58,841 bases of DNA from Phycisphaerae bacterium (GTDB lineage Bacteria > Planctomycetota > Phycisphaerae > Sedimentisphaerales > SM23-30), in contig JAEIOG010000023.1 in the NCBI GenBank assembly GCA_016342495.1, forward strand, positions 1-58,841, read 5' to 3'. Position 1 is the stretch's first letter. Every line of letters starts with the position of its first letter. Of this stretch, positions 37,101 to 43,573 are shown piece after piece. Under the pieces are notes generated by a model. That model was not told where the DNA came from. It did no database searches and saw nothing but the letters and a program-made list of their open reading frames with translations. The position numbers and the translations under genes were made by a program.

Positions 37101-38003
37101 CTACTGGGGAAGATAATAGATTCCAGGGCCCAGGCCATCGATATAGGGGATAGTGCCATCGGCAGATAGGGAAACCTTCATTTGGATTGTTTCTTTAGAA
37201 TTGTAAGATTTGACACAGCCATCGATATAGCCGGCATTCAGCTTCATTTCTGGAACAGCATCACTATCTTGTCTGCTCGAACCGGCCCAATAAGAAGAAA
37301 GTAACCAGGTTTCAGGAACTCTGGCAGAAGATTCAAATTTCTCACAACTGCCAAAAGCCCCTGGGCTGCGCCAATGGTCATAGCCAAGATAATCGCTGAC
37401 GAGTAATTTGCTATATTTGTTATTACCAGACAATCTGCGCGGACCATAATATGGCCTCTGCCGATCTACCTGATAACCAATATAGCCCCAATAATAGCAG
37501 AAAGTCCCGCCCAGCGGGTCAAAACCCATTATCGTATCAGGATTATCCCATTGGTCACCAGCATCCCATGCCTCCTGTAGATAAGGATATGGCGGCCTGG
37601 GTGCATTAGCACAATTCATTACATCGGCTTTGGAGATATATTGACCTAAATATTCACTCACAGCACGATGGTCACCAGGTCCTTGAAAATTATTACCAAT
37701 GAGTTTTGTTGGTTCAGCCCAATTAAAGCTATTGCCAAAGCCAACCGTTGCGACAGAATCCGGGCAACGGTCTCTATTATCACCAGCATACATAGTTACA
37801 GAGCTGGAAATGCTCCGTTGATTGGCTATATTAATAACCGAACGGGCTCTATAACGCATATAGGAATAAGTGGGAAGAATAATACTAAAAAGAACAGTGA
37901 TAATTGCTAAAGTAACAAGTAACTCGACCAGGGTAAATGCAGATGGGGAAACCCTGACCCGCCTGAATTTACGTAAAACTATTGTAATCAAAAGTTTATG
38001 CAT
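37101..38003 (-). CDS. Pseudopilin-like protein with prepilin N-terminal methylation site
   Basis: Protein of 300 residues with a 21-residue basic leader (ending RVRVSPS) followed by AFTLVELLVTLAIITVLFSI, the prepilin-type cleavage and helix region. The globular part contains TMYAGDNRDRCPDS, close to the [10 protein letters not shown] of the pseudopilin-like protein at 12262, so the three are distant relatives. The leader is longer than usual and the ribosome site before the ATG at 38003 is poor; no closer start codon fits. It is transcribed towards the AraC gene with a 48-base convergent gap. The exact function is unknown; a pseudopilus or envelope role is inferred from the family. Confidence 0.8.
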   Translation of the reverse strand: MHKLLITIVLRKFRRVRVSPSAFTLVELLVTLAIITVLFSIILPTYSYMRYRARSVINIANQRSISSSVTMYAGDNRDRCPDSVATVGFGNSFNWAEPTKLIGNNFQGPGDHRAVSEYLGQYISKADVMNCANAPRPPYPYLQEAWDAGDQWDNPDTIMGFDPLGGTFCYYWGYIGYQVDRQRPYYGPRRLSGNNKYSKLLVSDYLGYDHWRSPGAFGSCEKFESSARVPETWLLSSYWAGSSRQDSDAVPEMKLNAGYIDGCVKSYNSKETIQMKVSLSADGTIPYIDGLGPGIYYLPQ

Positions 38004-38124
38004 TATTTCACGAAAAAGTACAGAAATATGATTTACAAATTTGCTTTATAATAATTATACCCTCAAAATTTAATAAAACCCAGAGTTTGTTGAATAATTT
38101 GTAAGATTTTAGCTATCTGAAGCA

Positions 38125-38152
38125 AAACAGCACGAAGCGGCAGCGCCGTGCT
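38125..38152 (-). repeat. Hairpin repeat family A, copy 1
   Basis: 28 bases that on the minus strand read stem AGCACG, core GCGCTGCCGCTT, stem CGTGCT, then GTTT. The same layout recurs at 38220-38247 (+) and 52913-52940 (+). It faces copy 2 in inverted orientation with a 67-base spacer, like REP/BIME elements. Confidence 0.7.
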
Positions 38153-38219
38153 AAGGCATTATGCCATATTCAATGATGATTAAAGCAATTTTAGCGTTAA
38201 ACCACAATTTACGTTTTTT

Positions 38220-38247
38220 AGCTGGGCGCTGCCGCTTCCAGCTGTTT
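38220..38247 (+). repeat. Hairpin repeat family A, copy 2 (covarying stem)
   Basis: Stem AGCTGG, the identical core GCGCTGCCGCTT, stem CCAGCT, then GTTT. Compared with copies 1 and 3, two stem base pairs have changed on both sides so pairing is kept, while the core is untouched. Confidence 0.7.
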
Positions 38248-38321
38248 GTTAGCCCTATATTGGCTTATTATCGCCATTTATTTCAAGTCGCTAAAGTGTT
38301 ACAATAATATCAAAAAAAACT

Positions 38322-41120
38322 TTAGTCCAATACATTAATATTTGGATTTAAAGCCCATGGCAAAGTTCCGAGCCAGTTTTCAGCAAAAATAATGATGTCA
38401 CCAAAATCAATATCACCATCAAGATTTACATCGGCTGAATTTAATGATTGAGATTCAAGCCAGCAATTGGAGATATTCGCAAAATCATGCAGATCAACTA
38501 TACCATCATAATCATTATCCCCCTTCAACAGCCATAGACTGCGACTGGCAAAAATCGTCCCGCCACAGGCACCCATATTCAGTCGACCGCCATTAGGCAT
38601 AGTCTCACGGATGGGATTTATATCTGGTTGACCAGCATCCACGCATGGGCTGGTAATATTATCCGATACCCATTGCACAGGATAACTGGAAACACTATTG
38701 GGGTCATTAAAACCTGTGAATCGTCCAAACTTACTAGCTAAATAGAAAGAATTATCATCTTCGGCCCCAAAAAAGGCTGGCCCAGAAATATTGTCATGAA
38801 GAATAACCCGCCCTGAATCCATTGATGGCAATTGTATATTATCCTTATCATATCTGGAATATATCATTTCGCAGCCTGAAGCCTGATCACAGAAAAAATC
38901 ACCACTGTCATTTCCGGAAAAAATCGTATTAGCAATCAATGGCTGAGAATCACCCTGAACTACCATCCCTGTCCGGTTATTTACGATAGTAAGATTAGAC
39001 AATGTTGGCGATGTATGAACACAACTGACCGCCCAGAAGCAATCCCGAAAAATCATATTTCTGATTACAGTCTCGCGGGTTTCAGCATTATGGCAAACCA
39101 GACCATAACCATTAAGTGGTTGGATAACAGCCGGGACCGAAGCGCTTTGGATAAGAATTTTTTTACCCAATGGATCGATAGTCTCAGGATATACCCCCGG
39201 CCAGACAAGAATAACATTAGTATCAACCGCGACATTGACAGCCTGGACGATAGTCTTAAATGCGCTCTGGCGAATATAACCTTCATTGCTGTCACCACCA
39301 AGAAAGCCATCGACATGCAAAAGACGATACCGAATGCTTTTGCTGGCCTGGAAGCTTTGGCCATAAGCTCCGATATTAATTCTCCTGCCACTAGGCCATG
39401 GCTCAGCCGCTGTTAATTTATAAGGAATCCCTGCGTCTATACAAGGACTATGGCTAGAATCGCTCACCCATTGCTGACTGCGAGGATTATAACGCCCTGC
39501 TGTTGATTGCAAATGATAATCAGGATTCACCGCAGAGCCAATATTAGCGAACAAAGGGTCAACATCAATATTATACAGACCTGCAAAGCCACCTTTAACA
39601 TTACAATATTGCACGGGAGCAATATTTGCGATATTGTCAAATTTAATTTGGTTATTATCCTTATTCCAGATAATTGAATTACTGATTTTTACGCTGGCAT
39701 CTGATATTTCGACAACAGCGCATGCATTTGGGTCTGATATTGGTTTACAATCATTATCCGCAATTGTACAGTTTGTAATTTCAAACACATCAGTATCACT
39801 ACGTTTACCATTAACATATATCCCAGATCCCCCCTGGGCAATATTTTGATATACCAAGCATTGTTTGATTAAAACATTGCCAGAGTCCTCAAAACACAAC
39901 CCTGCTCCTGTCAGATTACCCGATGCAAAATTACCTGAAATAATAGTTTCAAAAATAGCCGGACTGCTTTTATAACAATAAATCCCAGCTCCCATGCTGT
40001 TACCATTGCATTTATTATTTTTGATTATACATTTAATGATTTGTGTTTTATTGTTGTGAAACATCGCTATCGCGCCGCCCATAGCTTTGTATTGTGCTAA
40101 ATCGGAATTGCCCGCCACACAATTTTGAATTTCACAATCATATATAACCGGCCCACCGCCAACAACCCCGATGGCACCGCCGATATGGGCCTGGCTATTG
40201 ATAATCTTACATTTCGAAATTATGGGGCTGGAAAATTCACAATAAATAGAACCACCAACAGAATGACTCGATGATTTTACCCATGGAATATCAGCATCGG
40301 CAGTTTCAATGCCTGAAACATAGCCATTGATGATTGTAAAACCTTGTATGATTGAATTATTATTTTCGCCATTGTGAAAATAAAATGCTCGGTGGCTGTT
40401 CTGACAATTAATAATTGTTTCTTCAGGACCATTTGCACTTCTCAGGCTTATGGCTTTACCCAGAAAATCAATATCGCAATTGCCCTCGCCAGTATAGACT
40501 CCGGGTAGAACTTCAATTATTTGACCCGTCACAGCATTATCAATAGCTTCCTGAATTGTATCAAAATGATAAGGCACAATAATGTCAGCCGTATCGCTGA
40601 TGAAATTAACTGAAAGATTATCAATAGAAGCCCCCTGACCTATAAATTGTACGAATAACTGACCTGTCAAAGAAAATACAGGCACCCGATTATAACCAGT
40701 TTCCAAATCAATAGGAACTGACCATATATGCCCAGTTGACGACAACCGGCATTTTAATGAAGTATTAACATAATTCTCAAAAGGAAATTCTACATCAAAT
40801 GTGATGCTGCCTTTTATGGTTTTATGATCAGTATCATCAGGCTTCAGCGGAAACCGGTATAAAATATCAGCAGGGATATTCTTATGCCCCATAAAAACCA
40901 GGGTTCGCGGCGAATCTGTCAAATAAGTGTTATAAAACAAATAAGGCTGGGCTGGCGGATAGGCAGTTTCGGGCCACTGAACACAATGGGCTACGCTGTC
41001 ATTGATAGCTTTATCGGAATTGAAATTATCATAATATTCATAAGCCCAGACAAACTGGTTTTGCCACAATGCCAGCGAGCATAAAATAAATAATAAGATT
41101 TTACGGTTTAGATAAAACAC
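38322..41120 (-). CDS. Secreted right-handed beta-helix protein with dockerin-like C-terminus
   Basis: Exported protein of 932 residues. A signal peptide (1-26) is followed by a beta-sandwich domain (~27-185). Two parallel beta-helix regions follow (~190-580 and ~600-830) with DUF1565-type openings such as IQEAIDNAVTGQIIEVLPGVYTGEG and FKTIVQAVNVAVDTNVILVWPGVYPETI. The C-terminus has a dockerin-like EF-hand pair (DNDYDGIVDLHDFANISNCW and DVNLDGDIDFGDIIIFAENW). Such helices often bind or cleave polysaccharides, but no lyase residues could be assigned. The start codon is GTG with an AGGAA ribosome site lying over the end of the sigma-factor gene 4 bases upstream, so the two are almost certainly coupled. 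This protein is the likely partner or output of that regulator (inferred). Confidence 0.84.
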   Translation of the reverse strand: MFYLNRKILLFILCSLALWQNQFVWAYEYYDNFNSDKAINDSVAHCVQWPETAYPPAQPYLFYNTYLTDSPRTLVFMGHKNIPADILYRFPLKPDDTDHKTIKGSITFDVEFPFENYVNTSLKCRLSSTGHIWSVPIDLETGYNRVPVFSLTGQLFVQFIGQGASIDNLSVNFISDTADIIVPYHFDTIQEAIDNAVTGQIIEVLPGVYTGEGNCDIDFLGKAISLRSANGPEETIINCQNSHRAFYFHNGENNNSIIQGFTIINGYVSGIETADADIPWVKSSSHSVGGSIYCEFSSPIISKCKIINSQAHIGGAIGVVGGGPVIYDCEIQNCVAGNSDLAQYKAMGGAIAMFHNNKTQIIKCIIKNNKCNGNSMGAGIYCYKSSPAIFETIISGNFASGNLTGAGLCFEDSGNVLIKQCLVYQNIAQGGSGIYVNGKRSDTDVFEITNCTIADNDCKPISDPNACAVVEISDASVKISNSIIWNKDNNQIKFDNIANIAPVQYCNVKGGFAGLYNIDVDPLFANIGSAVNPDYHLQSTAGRYNPRSQQWVSDSSHSPCIDAGIPYKLTAAEPWPSGRRINIGAYGQSFQASKSIRYRLLHVDGFLGGDSNEGYIRQSAFKTIVQAVNVAVDTNVILVWPGVYPETIDPLGKKILIQSASVPAVIQPLNGYGLVCHNAETRETVIRNMIFRDCFWAVSCVHTSPTLSNLTIVNNRTGMVVQGDSQPLIANTIFSGNDSGDFFCDQASGCEMIYSRYDKDNIQLPSMDSGRVILHDNISGPAFFGAEDDNSFYLASKFGRFTGFNDPNSVSSYPVQWVSDNITSPCVDAGQPDINPIRETMPNGGRLNMGACGGTIFASRSLWLLKGDNDYDGIVDLHDFANISNCWLESQSLNSADVNLDGDIDFGDIIIFAENWLGTLPWALNPNINVLD

Positions 41121-41124
41121 TGGT

Positions 41125-42978
41125 TTATTCCTGAACTTCCTCGCAAAGATTCATCAGCCAAAATATCCCCGGGCTCTTCCTGGTTTCCGAAGTTGGCAAG
41201 TTATTACCGGGTATTTGATTTTCAATATCTCTGTAATACTCAAATTTCATGTAGCCAACAGTTTGGCTGTTTTCAAACACAATCTCTTTAATCAAGTCCT
41301 GATATAAATCAATGGTATAAATCAGTTTATTATCATTATTGGTGATAATAATCCTGACATTTTGTTTATCGGGCAATAATTCTGTGGTAAATTGCATTTT
41401 TTGGGCAATCGCGTCTCGTCTGATAATATCAATTGTATGCAAACCCAGCCATGGCCTTTGCAAACCTGCCAGGAAACTTCCCGCCGGATATTTTACTGCT
41501 ACATCATTGCCAACCTTTAATACAGCCTGATTTGCATTATCAACAATTTCATAATCCGAGCCGATTTGCATTTGCACCCAGGGTCCATGCTCCGCATACT
41601 TATCACAATAAAAAGGAATCTGCCCCTTACCTGAAACCTGCTGGCGATTAATATGCCCTGATATCGCAAAATAAGCCCAGCCCTGTTTATGAATGTCGTC
41701 ACGGTTATCGACCAAAGTCGCCTTACTGGGCCAGTCACATTTAAAATAATCTTCCCCCAAAAGATTGTGGTGCCTGATGAGTTTCCAATTATCGTTAATA
41801 CTTGAACCATCCTTTTCAGTTACAATCAACAAACCATTACCACGCGACTGAGATTGAACCATTTTATTAGAAAAACCCTGTACCCGCTCTAAATAAGCGG
41901 TAAATTCAGCAGAATCAGTGGGTAATTGCATAACGGATAAATCAGGATTAAAATAATGATAATTTTGCGAATAAATCTTATTGCCAGAATACGGATAATA
42001 AAAACTTCCCTGATGATTCTGAAGCAGAAGGCATTGCGAAATATGATTATCCGGGTCTACAGCAATCCTTTTAGTCATCACCATAGCTCCGGGCCCCTTA
42101 GGGTAATAATACCAATGCTGCACCGGAACATTATCATTATTTATAAGCTGCTGGGCATGTATTATCTCTAACCGTTGTTGGCTGATACCAGGCAATAAAT
42201 TAGAATCATTTCCTCCCCGAAGGGCGATACTACCAGAATAAATCAAGGCAACAGCCATATAGCACATTATTGCCAGCTTGCTGGTCATAAAACCAACAGT
42301 AGCAACTGAACTGCCAACACTAATAGTCGAAGAACCGATAATAACATTTGCCGCAGCAGCTTCACTGACAGCTGTAATTTTCCCAAATATTGTTAAAGCC
42401 AAAATAATTGATAAACCCGAATAGCCAGTATTCGCTAATTGTTTGGCCAGAGATTTTTTCGCACGCAGGAAAAGCATCCGTACCGCGAATTTATTGCTTT
42501 CCAGCGATTTAGCAATATCGCCGTAATCCATTTGTTCATAGCATCGCATACTAAGAATAGCTCGATGTTCCGGTTTGAGCTTGCTGATTGCACAAGAGAC
42601 GGCATTGGTAAGCTCATCACTGATAACAGCAGCTAAACCATCGTGATTGTCAGTGTGCTTATCCTGAGGGTCCATCTCTGATAAGGAAACCGTTTTATGC
42701 CGTATTGCCGACCTTTGCTGATGCCTGATTTTATTAAAAGCAATGCCGCAAAGCCAGGGCCAAAAACGCCCCGGTTCATGAAGTTTGCTGATAACCTGAC
42801 ACATTTCCATCAAGGATTCCTGAACGATGTCAGCAGCTAACTCATCCCGTAGCACAATACGATAAACATGCCTGTGCAAAGGGGCAATAGCCAACTGGGA
42901 CAGCTGATCAAGGCTCTGCTTATCTCCCAGGCGAGCCCGGTTGACAAGATTGATTGTATTTTCATTATTTAAAAACAT
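41125..42978 (-). CDS. ECF sigma factor fused to membrane segments and a large C-terminal domain
   Basis: Protein of 617 residues. Residues ~10-180 are an ECF sigma factor: region 2 with DELAADIVQESLMEMCQ and WPWLCGIAFNKIR, region 4 with LKPEHRAILSMRCYEQMDYGDIAKSL. Two hydrophobic stretches follow (~187-205 and ~233-253). The remaining ~360 residues are soluble, beta-rich and of no family I recognise (for example YYYPKGPGAMVMTKRIAVDPDN and PWLGLHTIDIIRRDAI). If the second stretch spans the membrane, the C-terminal part is extracytoplasmic, so one polypeptide would join signal receiver and sigma factor. ECF factors normally use separate anti-sigma proteins. It is the first gene of an operon with the beta-helix protein. 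Confidence 0.85.
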   Translation of the reverse strand: MFLNNENTINLVNRARLGDKQSLDQLSQLAIAPLHRHVYRIVLRDELAADIVQESLMEMCQVISKLHEPGRFWPWLCGIAFNKIRHQQRSAIRHKTVSLSEMDPQDKHTDNHDGLAAVISDELTNAVSCAISKLKPEHRAILSMRCYEQMDYGDIAKSLESNKFAVRMLFLRAKKSLAKQLANTGYSGLSIILALTIFGKITAVSEAAAANVIIGSSTISVGSSVATVGFMTSKLAIMCYMAVALIYSGSIALRGGNDSNLLPGISQQRLEIIHAQQLINNDNVPVQHWYYYPKGPGAMVMTKRIAVDPDNHISQCLLLQNHQGSFYYPYSGNKIYSQNYHYFNPDLSVMQLPTDSAEFTAYLERVQGFSNKMVQSQSRGNGLLIVTEKDGSSINDNWKLIRHHNLLGEDYFKCDWPSKATLVDNRDDIHKQGWAYFAISGHINRQQVSGKGQIPFYCDKYAEHGPWVQMQIGSDYEIVDNANQAVLKVGNDVAVKYPAGSFLAGLQRPWLGLHTIDIIRRDAIAQKMQFTTELLPDKQNVRIIITNNDNKLIYTIDLYQDLIKEIVFENSQTVGYMKFEYYRDIENQIPGNNLPTSETRKSPGIFWLMNLCEEVQE

Positions 42979-43573
42979 AACTATATATATGTGCCATCGA
43001 ATTAAGAAATATAACGGTTATTTTTCGAAAAATTACAAAATATATAAAATTTCAACCGTAGAAACAAATTTATGCCCATATAGTAAATTATACAGGATTT
43101 GGAGCTAAATTCTGAAAAAAAATATATTTTTACCGTTATATCCTGCTTTGTCCGGGAACTATTATTATGAACAGACGCCTCAGAGTGACTTCAAACGTTC
43201 TTTTTTCATTAAGCTAACCTCTAATAATTGCTTTTATTGCGAAAATGTTCTTTTATTTGCAGACAAGAGACAAAAAACGCCAAATTTTTTAAGGGTACCT
43301 CTAATAATTGCTTTTGAGCTGAGAGTAGAAGGTTTTTTTGGCTGACAAGGAACAAAGAATCGTGCATATTTGTAGATATTCACGTTTTTTGATCCGCAGT
43401 TCAGCCGGAAAAAAATTCGCTATCAGGCAAAATTGAATTTTTAGAGGTTCCCTATAATCTTAAAAGTTTTTTGTTCGGCAGTTCAGTTGACAAAAGATTC
43501 ATCAAAGCAAGATTTAATTATTGGAGGTTACCTTCTATTACTTAGACTAATATTTTTTATGGAGGCTAAAGCT
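42979..43573. other. Intergenic region between the sigma-fusion and GEVED genes
   Basis: About 595 bases between divergent genes. A 10-bp inverted repeat ATATAACGGT / ACCGTTATAT lies at 43009-43018 and 43132-43141. From 43197 to about 43500 there are repeated short units, described separately. A TTGACA box at 43487 has no good -10 partner. Start signals for both flanking genes must lie here but were not located. Confidence 0.4.
43197..43500. repeat. Cluster of degenerate repeats, possible remnants of mobile-element ends
   Basis: A 19-bp perfect direct repeat ACCTCTAATAATTGCTTTT occurs at 43217-43235 and 43297-43315, with its first eight bases inverted at 43441-43448. A second unit, GTTTTTTG-T-C-GCAGTTCAG (19 of 21 bases shared), is at 43384-43404 and 43466-43486. 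Weaker relatives begin at 43197, 43247 and 43332. AGGGTACCTCTAA (43292-43304) and TTAGAGGTTCCCT (43441-43453) form near-perfect inverted ends about 160 bases apart, as in a small MITE-like element. No transposase is present. Confidence 0.5.

Follow-up and report, generated by a model that had tools for sequence, protein, structure and literature searches.

Can a single protein both sense a signal outside the cell and switch genes inside it? The question is raised by a locus in a stretch of 58,841 nucleotides from a Phycisphaerae bacterium of the order Sedimentisphaerales (contig JAEIOG010000023.1 of assembly GCA_016342495.1), here called the window. At this locus, an ECF sigma factor continues in one reading frame through hydrophobic stretches into a long C-terminal part, so that signal sensing and gene switching may be united in one chain. 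We propose, with a probability of about 0.6, that the protein is a membrane-anchored ECF sigma factor with its own outside sensor, which regulates itself, controls surface proteins and is probably freed by proteolysis. The protein and its parts are located as follows:

41125..42978, minus strand: ECF sigma factor, membrane linker and LolA/RseB-like domain in one protein, 617 aa, aligned to 36 full-length homologues
42427..42966, minus strand: sigma2-linker-sigma4 domain, residues 5-184 (Pfam r2 and r4_2; SigW superposition)
42289..42417, minus strand: conserved hydrophobic linker, residues 188-230, consensus LLTALVVFGKMTAPSEAAAA...VTAATxKVG (alignment and hydropathy; not clearly membrane-spanning)
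42220..42276, minus strand: most consistent transmembrane segment, residues 235-253 (KD 2.00; octanol-scale sum -6.3 in the window)
41128..42123, minus strand: C-terminal domain, residues 286-617 (predicted LolA/RseB fold over residues 346-601; AlphaFold2 and PDB structure matches)

The open reading frame at 41125-42978 on the minus strand is intact and encodes 617 residues from an ATG start. The original prediction had placed a sigma factor at residues ~10-180, which is borne out by Pfam matches to Sigma70_r2 (residues 34-90, E 2e-6) and Sigma70_r4_2 (residues 126-177, E 8e-7), both above the gathering cut-off and both present in all 37 aligned family members. The window protein has sigma2 and sigma4 without sigma3, as expected of an ECF (sigma70 group 4) factor. 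When the whole protein of 617 aa was modelled from 37 sequences, its sigma part aligned structurally with SigW taken from the SigW-RsiW complex (Z 17.4, 158 residues, 2.8 Å). It matched SigW held by the anti-sigma factor RsiW rather than the RNA-polymerase-bound forms, a compact state that AlphaFold2 may prefer in any case.

A protein search of 59 related genomes gave about 40 nearly full-length relatives, and identity between the aligned ones and the window protein is 28-38% across roughly 600 residues. Counting similar fusions and their neighbours in Phycisphaerae had been proposed as a check. A search with an alignment of the C-terminal domain located it in 92 of 161 Sedimentisphaerales genomes, often in several copies and mostly in open frames of 600-670 residues, and in all 100 loci read it lies behind a sigma part. 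A sample of 392 genomes from the phylum contained the domain in three genomes only, all of them Sedimentisphaerales, and a single-sequence scan of genome contigs returned two matching records, from Sedimentisphaerales/Phycisphaerae MAGs. The mean pairwise identity is 35% for the C-terminal domain and 40% for the sigma part, and an invariant W-G-H-D-RR block (W510, G512, H514, D517, R520, R521) is present in the former. The C-terminal part is thus conserved rather than a dispensable tail; a lack of conservation would have spoken against the original prediction. The domain architecture and its conservation are established by these data.

Two hydrophobic segments had been predicted between the sigma part and the C-terminal domain, giving two membrane crossings with a sensor outside. 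Instead, there are three hydrophobic stretches, at residues about 191-209, 212-230 and 235-253. The first (consensus LLTALVVFGKMTAPSEAAAA) is highly conserved, short and broken by a lysine, the middle one is weak, and according to hydropathy the last alone is a convincing span across the 37 relatives. Lysine or arginine is found directly ahead of this span in 84% of the aligned sequences, with nearly none within it and few after it, which by the positive-inside rule predicts that the sigma part lies inside and the C-terminal domain outside. Exactly two spans would return the C-terminal domain to the cytoplasm, contrary to the sensing model with which they had been proposed, and the charge pattern favours one span (or three) with the C-terminal domain outside.

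A second span is conceivable in the first hydrophobic segment (FGKMTAPSEAAAA), which would bring the C-terminal domain inside. A domain that is cytoplasmic behind two spans, or peripheral, would act as an intramolecular conformational switch as in ECF41 and ECF238, with no transmembrane signal, and C-terminal extensions working by conformational change have precedent (PMC8999054). The first and third of the three stretches might pair as a hairpin, and unpaired cysteines are scattered in the C-terminal domain. Such a switch is nevertheless unlikely, considering the positive charges ahead of the last span and their near absence behind it, the extracytoplasmic location of the leading solved fold relatives (LolA, RseB, MucB and LprG), and the downstream genes, which code for secreted and pilin-like proteins.

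The motif LLxALxxFGKxTAPSEAAAA (42358-42417, residues 188-207) is common, with variations, to these tethered sigma factors; candidate roles are a membrane hairpin, a signal-peptidase-like site or an inhibitory helix. An AxA site of the SPase I type is possible in the EAAAA after the first hydrophobic segment, but the alanine runs make it uninformative. The idea is modelled on RsiP, which is cut by signal peptidase according to one report (PMC8844934).

The sequence beyond the span had been described as ~360 residues of unknown fold. It indeed belongs to no named family: the domain of about 330 residues had no match in Pfam, NCBIfam or PDB sequence searches, and the MucB_RseB family of Pfam matched none of the 37 members at E 0.05. 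However, a fold is given by a confident AlphaFold2 model of the domain alone (mean pLDDT 89.5, pTM 0.90). Its top Foldseek match is RseB of E. coli (2p4b, E 2e-5), and the first 40 matches consist almost entirely of LolA, RseB, MucB, LprG and LppX. A second structure aligner gave Z up to 9.3 for LolA (131-151 residues, 3.8-4.3 Å) and 8.0 for RseB 3m4w (148 residues, 4.2 Å), with LolA equally close and with about equal Z for VioE and ependymin-related proteins, which have the same half-barrel; a Z around 9 is moderate, and a common fold is no proof of common function. LolA, RseB, MucB and LprG are extracytoplasmic proteins. Proteins with the LolA fold carry lipids or lipoproteins, and RseB and MucB act in the periplasm to regulate the sigmaE pathway and the AlgU pathway, respectively. 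With the Pfam model PF03548, LolA as a separate gene was not found in the window's genome and was found in one of 26 genomes of the order.

Based on the LolA/RseB fold of the model (pTM 0.90), the window protein appears to resemble a fusion of sigmaE with RseB in which no anti-sigma domain can be recognised. The sigmaE-RseA-RseB system of E. coli and the AlgU-MucA-MucB system of Pseudomonas consist of three proteins, in which RseA and MucA bear the anti-sigma domain and RseB is separate and soluble, with an extra small domain. Shared with them are the cytoplasmic ECF sigma factor, the single span, the outside domain of LolA fold and the autoregulated operon, topology and autoregulation being predictions here. 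The window protein differs in being a single chain without a recognisable anti-sigma domain, and in its operon with beta-helix and pilin-like genes. Neither is the C-terminal domain a separate secreted protein with a small anti-sigma-binding domain, as RseB and MucB are: in the copies read through it is always fused to the sigma part, and the chain stops soon after the LolA-like portion.

No Pfam match to the anti-sigma domains zf-HC2, RskA or FecR was obtained for the window protein. The anti-sigma matches among the 37 relatives amount to one stray RskA_C at E 0.039 in one member, with FecR matching none of them, and the HxxxCxxC zinc-finger anti-sigma motif is absent from residues 184-285. 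Together with the conserved C-terminal domain and the operon with a secreted gene, this supports the earlier proposal of a single chain without a separate anti-sigma factor. Since no anti-sigma domain was recognised, the silencing of the tethered sigma part is left unexplained, and the sigma factor may not be silenced. The conserved FGKMTA linker is a candidate, and the first place to seek a substitute for the anti-sigma domain.

The general kind of protein is already known, since IutY, ECF52, ECF48 and ECF53 are also fusions of sigma factor, span and ectodomain. IutY (ECF243) of Pseudomonas putida is a sigma factor with a membrane-crossing C-terminal part and is activated by Prc and RseP proteolysis (PMC8999054). 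The window protein likewise combines a sigma factor and a membrane-crossing C-terminal part in one chain, whereas the fused membrane-bound anti-sigma part and the cell-surface iron signalling of IutY were not found here; where IutY/ECF243 has a FecR-like part and a TonB-dependent partner, the neighbours in the window are beta-helix and pilin-like genes. ECF52 (SCO4117), ECF48 and ECF53 of Actinobacteria also have a C-terminal extension with a span and an extracytoplasmic domain, theirs having one or two spans and a proposed proteolytic activation, but they differ in their zinc-finger anti-sigma region and in their ectodomains (e.g. carbohydrate binding). Descent from such a sigma/anti-sigma fusion (ECF48, ECF52, ECF53 or IutY/ECF243), after loss of the recognisable anti-sigma motif, would explain the same overall order of sigma factor, span and ectodomain, and activation by proteolysis has been demonstrated for IutY and suggested for ECF52 (PMC8999054). 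Yet neither an HxxxCxxC zinc finger nor a FecR-like region lies between the sigma part and the span, the linker has only about 50 residues, and the phylum and the ectodomain fold are others, which makes this origin very improbable.

ECF57 of Planctomycetes has a C-terminal extension rich in WD40-like repeats (PMC8999054). It is similar to the window protein in phylum and in the length of the extension, but none of the 37 sigma proteins gave a WD40/PD40 match in Pfam, and a LolA-like half-barrel is predicted instead of the repeats. For cellulosome-forming clostridia, two reports describe SigI/RsgI, in which genes for dockerin-bearing surface proteins are under the control of a membrane regulator that has an outside domain (PMC6056542, PMC12203970). 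This system differs in its separate anti-sigma factor RsgI, in its sigma family and in its polysaccharide sensing. As far as the searched open-licence literature shows, the new elements are the predicted LolA/RseB-fold ectodomain on a sigma factor, the lack of an anti-sigma domain, the constant operon in which beta-helix and pilin-like genes accompany the sigma gene, and the predicted promoter.

Two genes follow the sigma gene on the same strand:

38322..41120, minus strand: secreted protein of 932 aa with beta-helix and dockerin-like parts (begins with GTG, 4 nt beyond the sigma stop)
37101..38003, minus strand: type IV pilin-like protein, third gene of the cassette (Pfam N_methyl above cut-off)

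The sigma gene ends with TAA (41127-41125), followed by ACCA and the GTG (41120-41118) of the 932-aa gene, whose likely Shine-Dalgarno sequence (CAGGAA / GAGGAAG) lies within the sigma reading frame, exactly as had been claimed. The description of this neighbour as a secreted beta-helix dockerin protein holds for the signal peptide and, through weak DUF1565/NosD matches, for the beta-helix, whereas the dockerin-like repeat scores slightly below the Pfam cut-off (20.0 vs 22.9 bits). The span given for the system, 38322-42978, contains the sigma and secreted genes but leaves out the third gene of the cassette at 37101-38003, the pilin-like product of which has the N-methylation motif AFTLVELL and the C-terminal end GPGIYYLPQ.

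Downstream sequence of 6 kb or more was available for 78 copies. In 61 of these, a same-strand pilin-like gene, always from one family, is located no more than 7.6 kb downstream, and in 17 none was found; an upstream control (5 kb) gave 7 of 75. Usually one secreted-protein gene lies between the sigma and pilin genes, at a median distance of 49 nt from the former. Of the proteins encoded by these middle genes, 38 of 48 match Beta_helix (Pfam) and 39 match Disaggr_assoc, while some have Laminin_G, dockerin or PD40. In a divergent clade (e.g. L075, L079, L083, L085, L087, L088), the pilin gene directly follows the sigma gene. The cassette is a conserved operon of sigma, secreted beta-helix and pilin-like genes.

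The sigma gene of the window is preceded by a putative promoter:

42982..43024, minus strand: predicted autoregulatory ECF-type promoter, AAAATAACCGTTAT-N14-TGGCACATATATATA (PWM score; 12 nt from TGGCAC to the ATG)

In 95 regions upstream of the sigma genes, an unbiased search for spaced word pairs yielded a single dominant motif, CGTTA(C/T)-N15-TGGCACTTA, preceded by an A-tract. Its six-letter cores occur with at most one mismatch in 24 of the 95 regions, against 0 or 1 per shuffle in 20 shuffles, and among the 28 best sites, 26 keep a spacer of precisely 15. By the strict pattern, the motif is clear ahead of only about 30% of the copies, the rest having variants or nothing; a subclade has CGTCA...TTGRACTTA in place of the main pattern, which would fit a specificity that changes together with the sigma factor. 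Scored with a PWM derived from 29 sites that do not include its own, the window site (spacer 14) reaches 22.8 bits, compared with 6.5 for the second-best window site and 11.3 for the best in five shuffled windows. The sole exact match to ACCGTTAT-N14-TGGCACNTA in the 5.4-Mb genome is the sigma factor's own promoter site.

The motif and the fusion occur together across genomes. The longer pattern was found at 88 sites in 30 fusion-bearing genomes, where the reversed control gave 9, and at 2 sites in 30 fusion-free genomes of the order, where this control also gave 9; the latter genomes are smaller, with equal control counts. Sites that are not ahead of sigma genes often stand before genes for signal-peptide secreted proteins (beta-helix, GEVED or similar). 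At L261, L263, L266, L274, L277, L278, L288 and L300, the motif, mostly with the A-tract, precedes other secreted-protein genes (beta-helix, GEVED, pre-peptidase-like), which, being away from the sigma operon, are candidate regulon members. A wide regulon was rejected for the window's genome, where sites with three mismatches are no commoner than those of the reversed-pattern control and the self site alone is exact; with this single exact site, the regulon may be little more than the sigma factor's own operon. A sigma site oriented towards the divergent GEVED/DUF7901 gene (about 43131, plus strand) seemed plausible on inspection and was rejected, since it is not among the top PWM sites of the window.

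The window's genome encodes two further tethered sigma factors (C216 and C49, 427-435 aa), which have the same sigma-linker-span part and an unrelated ectodomain of about 190 residues. Their genes (L089, 5428-6735, and L090, 5422-6705, both minus strand) have a pilin-like gene next, at -11 or 0 nt. Sigma factors of about 283 aa (L091, L092, L093, L094, L098, L099) occur in other genomes of the order; they have the same linker and extra spans at the end but no ectodomain, and no pilin gene was seen directly after them. The occurrence of one tether with different ectodomains or none suggests that the ectodomain has been exchanged while the tether was kept.

These siblings bear on the idea that the sigma factor is active while bound to the membrane, the tether serving transcription near the membrane and the C-terminal domain, instead of sensing, helping the co-expressed secreted proteins as their chaperone or lipid carrier. 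The missing anti-sigma domain, the lipid and lipoprotein carriage of LolA-fold proteins and the strict operon linkage to exported proteins agree with it. Unrelated or absent ectodomains on the same tether, however, fit a changeable sensor better than a shared chaperone, and IutY, the membrane-bound ECF fusion studied so far, requires cleavage (PMC8999054). We therefore regard activity in the tethered state as quite improbable.

For the preferred reading, a membrane-anchored sigma factor with an outside sensor, the following sequence of events can be envisaged. The sigma2-sigma4 part in the cytoplasm would be joined by one span to the predicted LolA/RseB half-barrel in the periplasm and be kept inactive while tethered. 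The half-barrel may detect a change outside, which could involve a ligand of lipid or lipoprotein-like nature or else the condition of the exported beta-helix and pilin products; for MucB, one study describes lipid signals that loosen it from MucA (PMC7400510). Sensing would lead to cleavage in or near the membrane by an RseP-like site-2 protease and set the sigma part free. We infer this proteolytic release from the precedent of IutY (PMC8999054) and from an RseP-like M50 protease of 724 aa encoded in the window's genome. The free sigma part would read CGTTAC-N15-TGGCACTTA and its variants. As the motif stands before the sigma factor's own gene, the operon of sigma, beta-helix/dockerin and pilin-like genes would be under positive self-control, and in some relatives other secreted-protein genes behind the same motif would respond as well.

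A more specific version, a one-protein sigmaE-RseA-RseB pathway, is possible but tentative: the ectodomain would monitor export or lipidation of the beta-helix and pilin products, silencing would be by the tether alone and release by cleavage, and ectodomains would be swapped between siblings as sensor cassettes. A transmembrane pathway of three proteins would thereby be reduced to one chain, and the family could reveal whether tethering silences an ECF sigma factor that has no anti-sigma domain. It also offers a concrete promoter and likely targets (surface beta-helix, dockerin and pilin-like proteins) in a mostly uncultured planctomycete order whose surface biology is almost unstudied, and since motif and fusion go together across genomes, a reporter assay in a heterologous host would be simple to set up.

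A palindromic repeat of about 144 bp (38110-38253, arms AGCGGCAGCGCC), which folds as ssDNA (z -5.5), separates the beta-helix gene from the pilin gene; Rfam gave no match over the region. About 23 other near-full-length copies (76-96% identical) and several fragments are present in the genome, and the repeat is similar to an element of the MITE/REPIN type.
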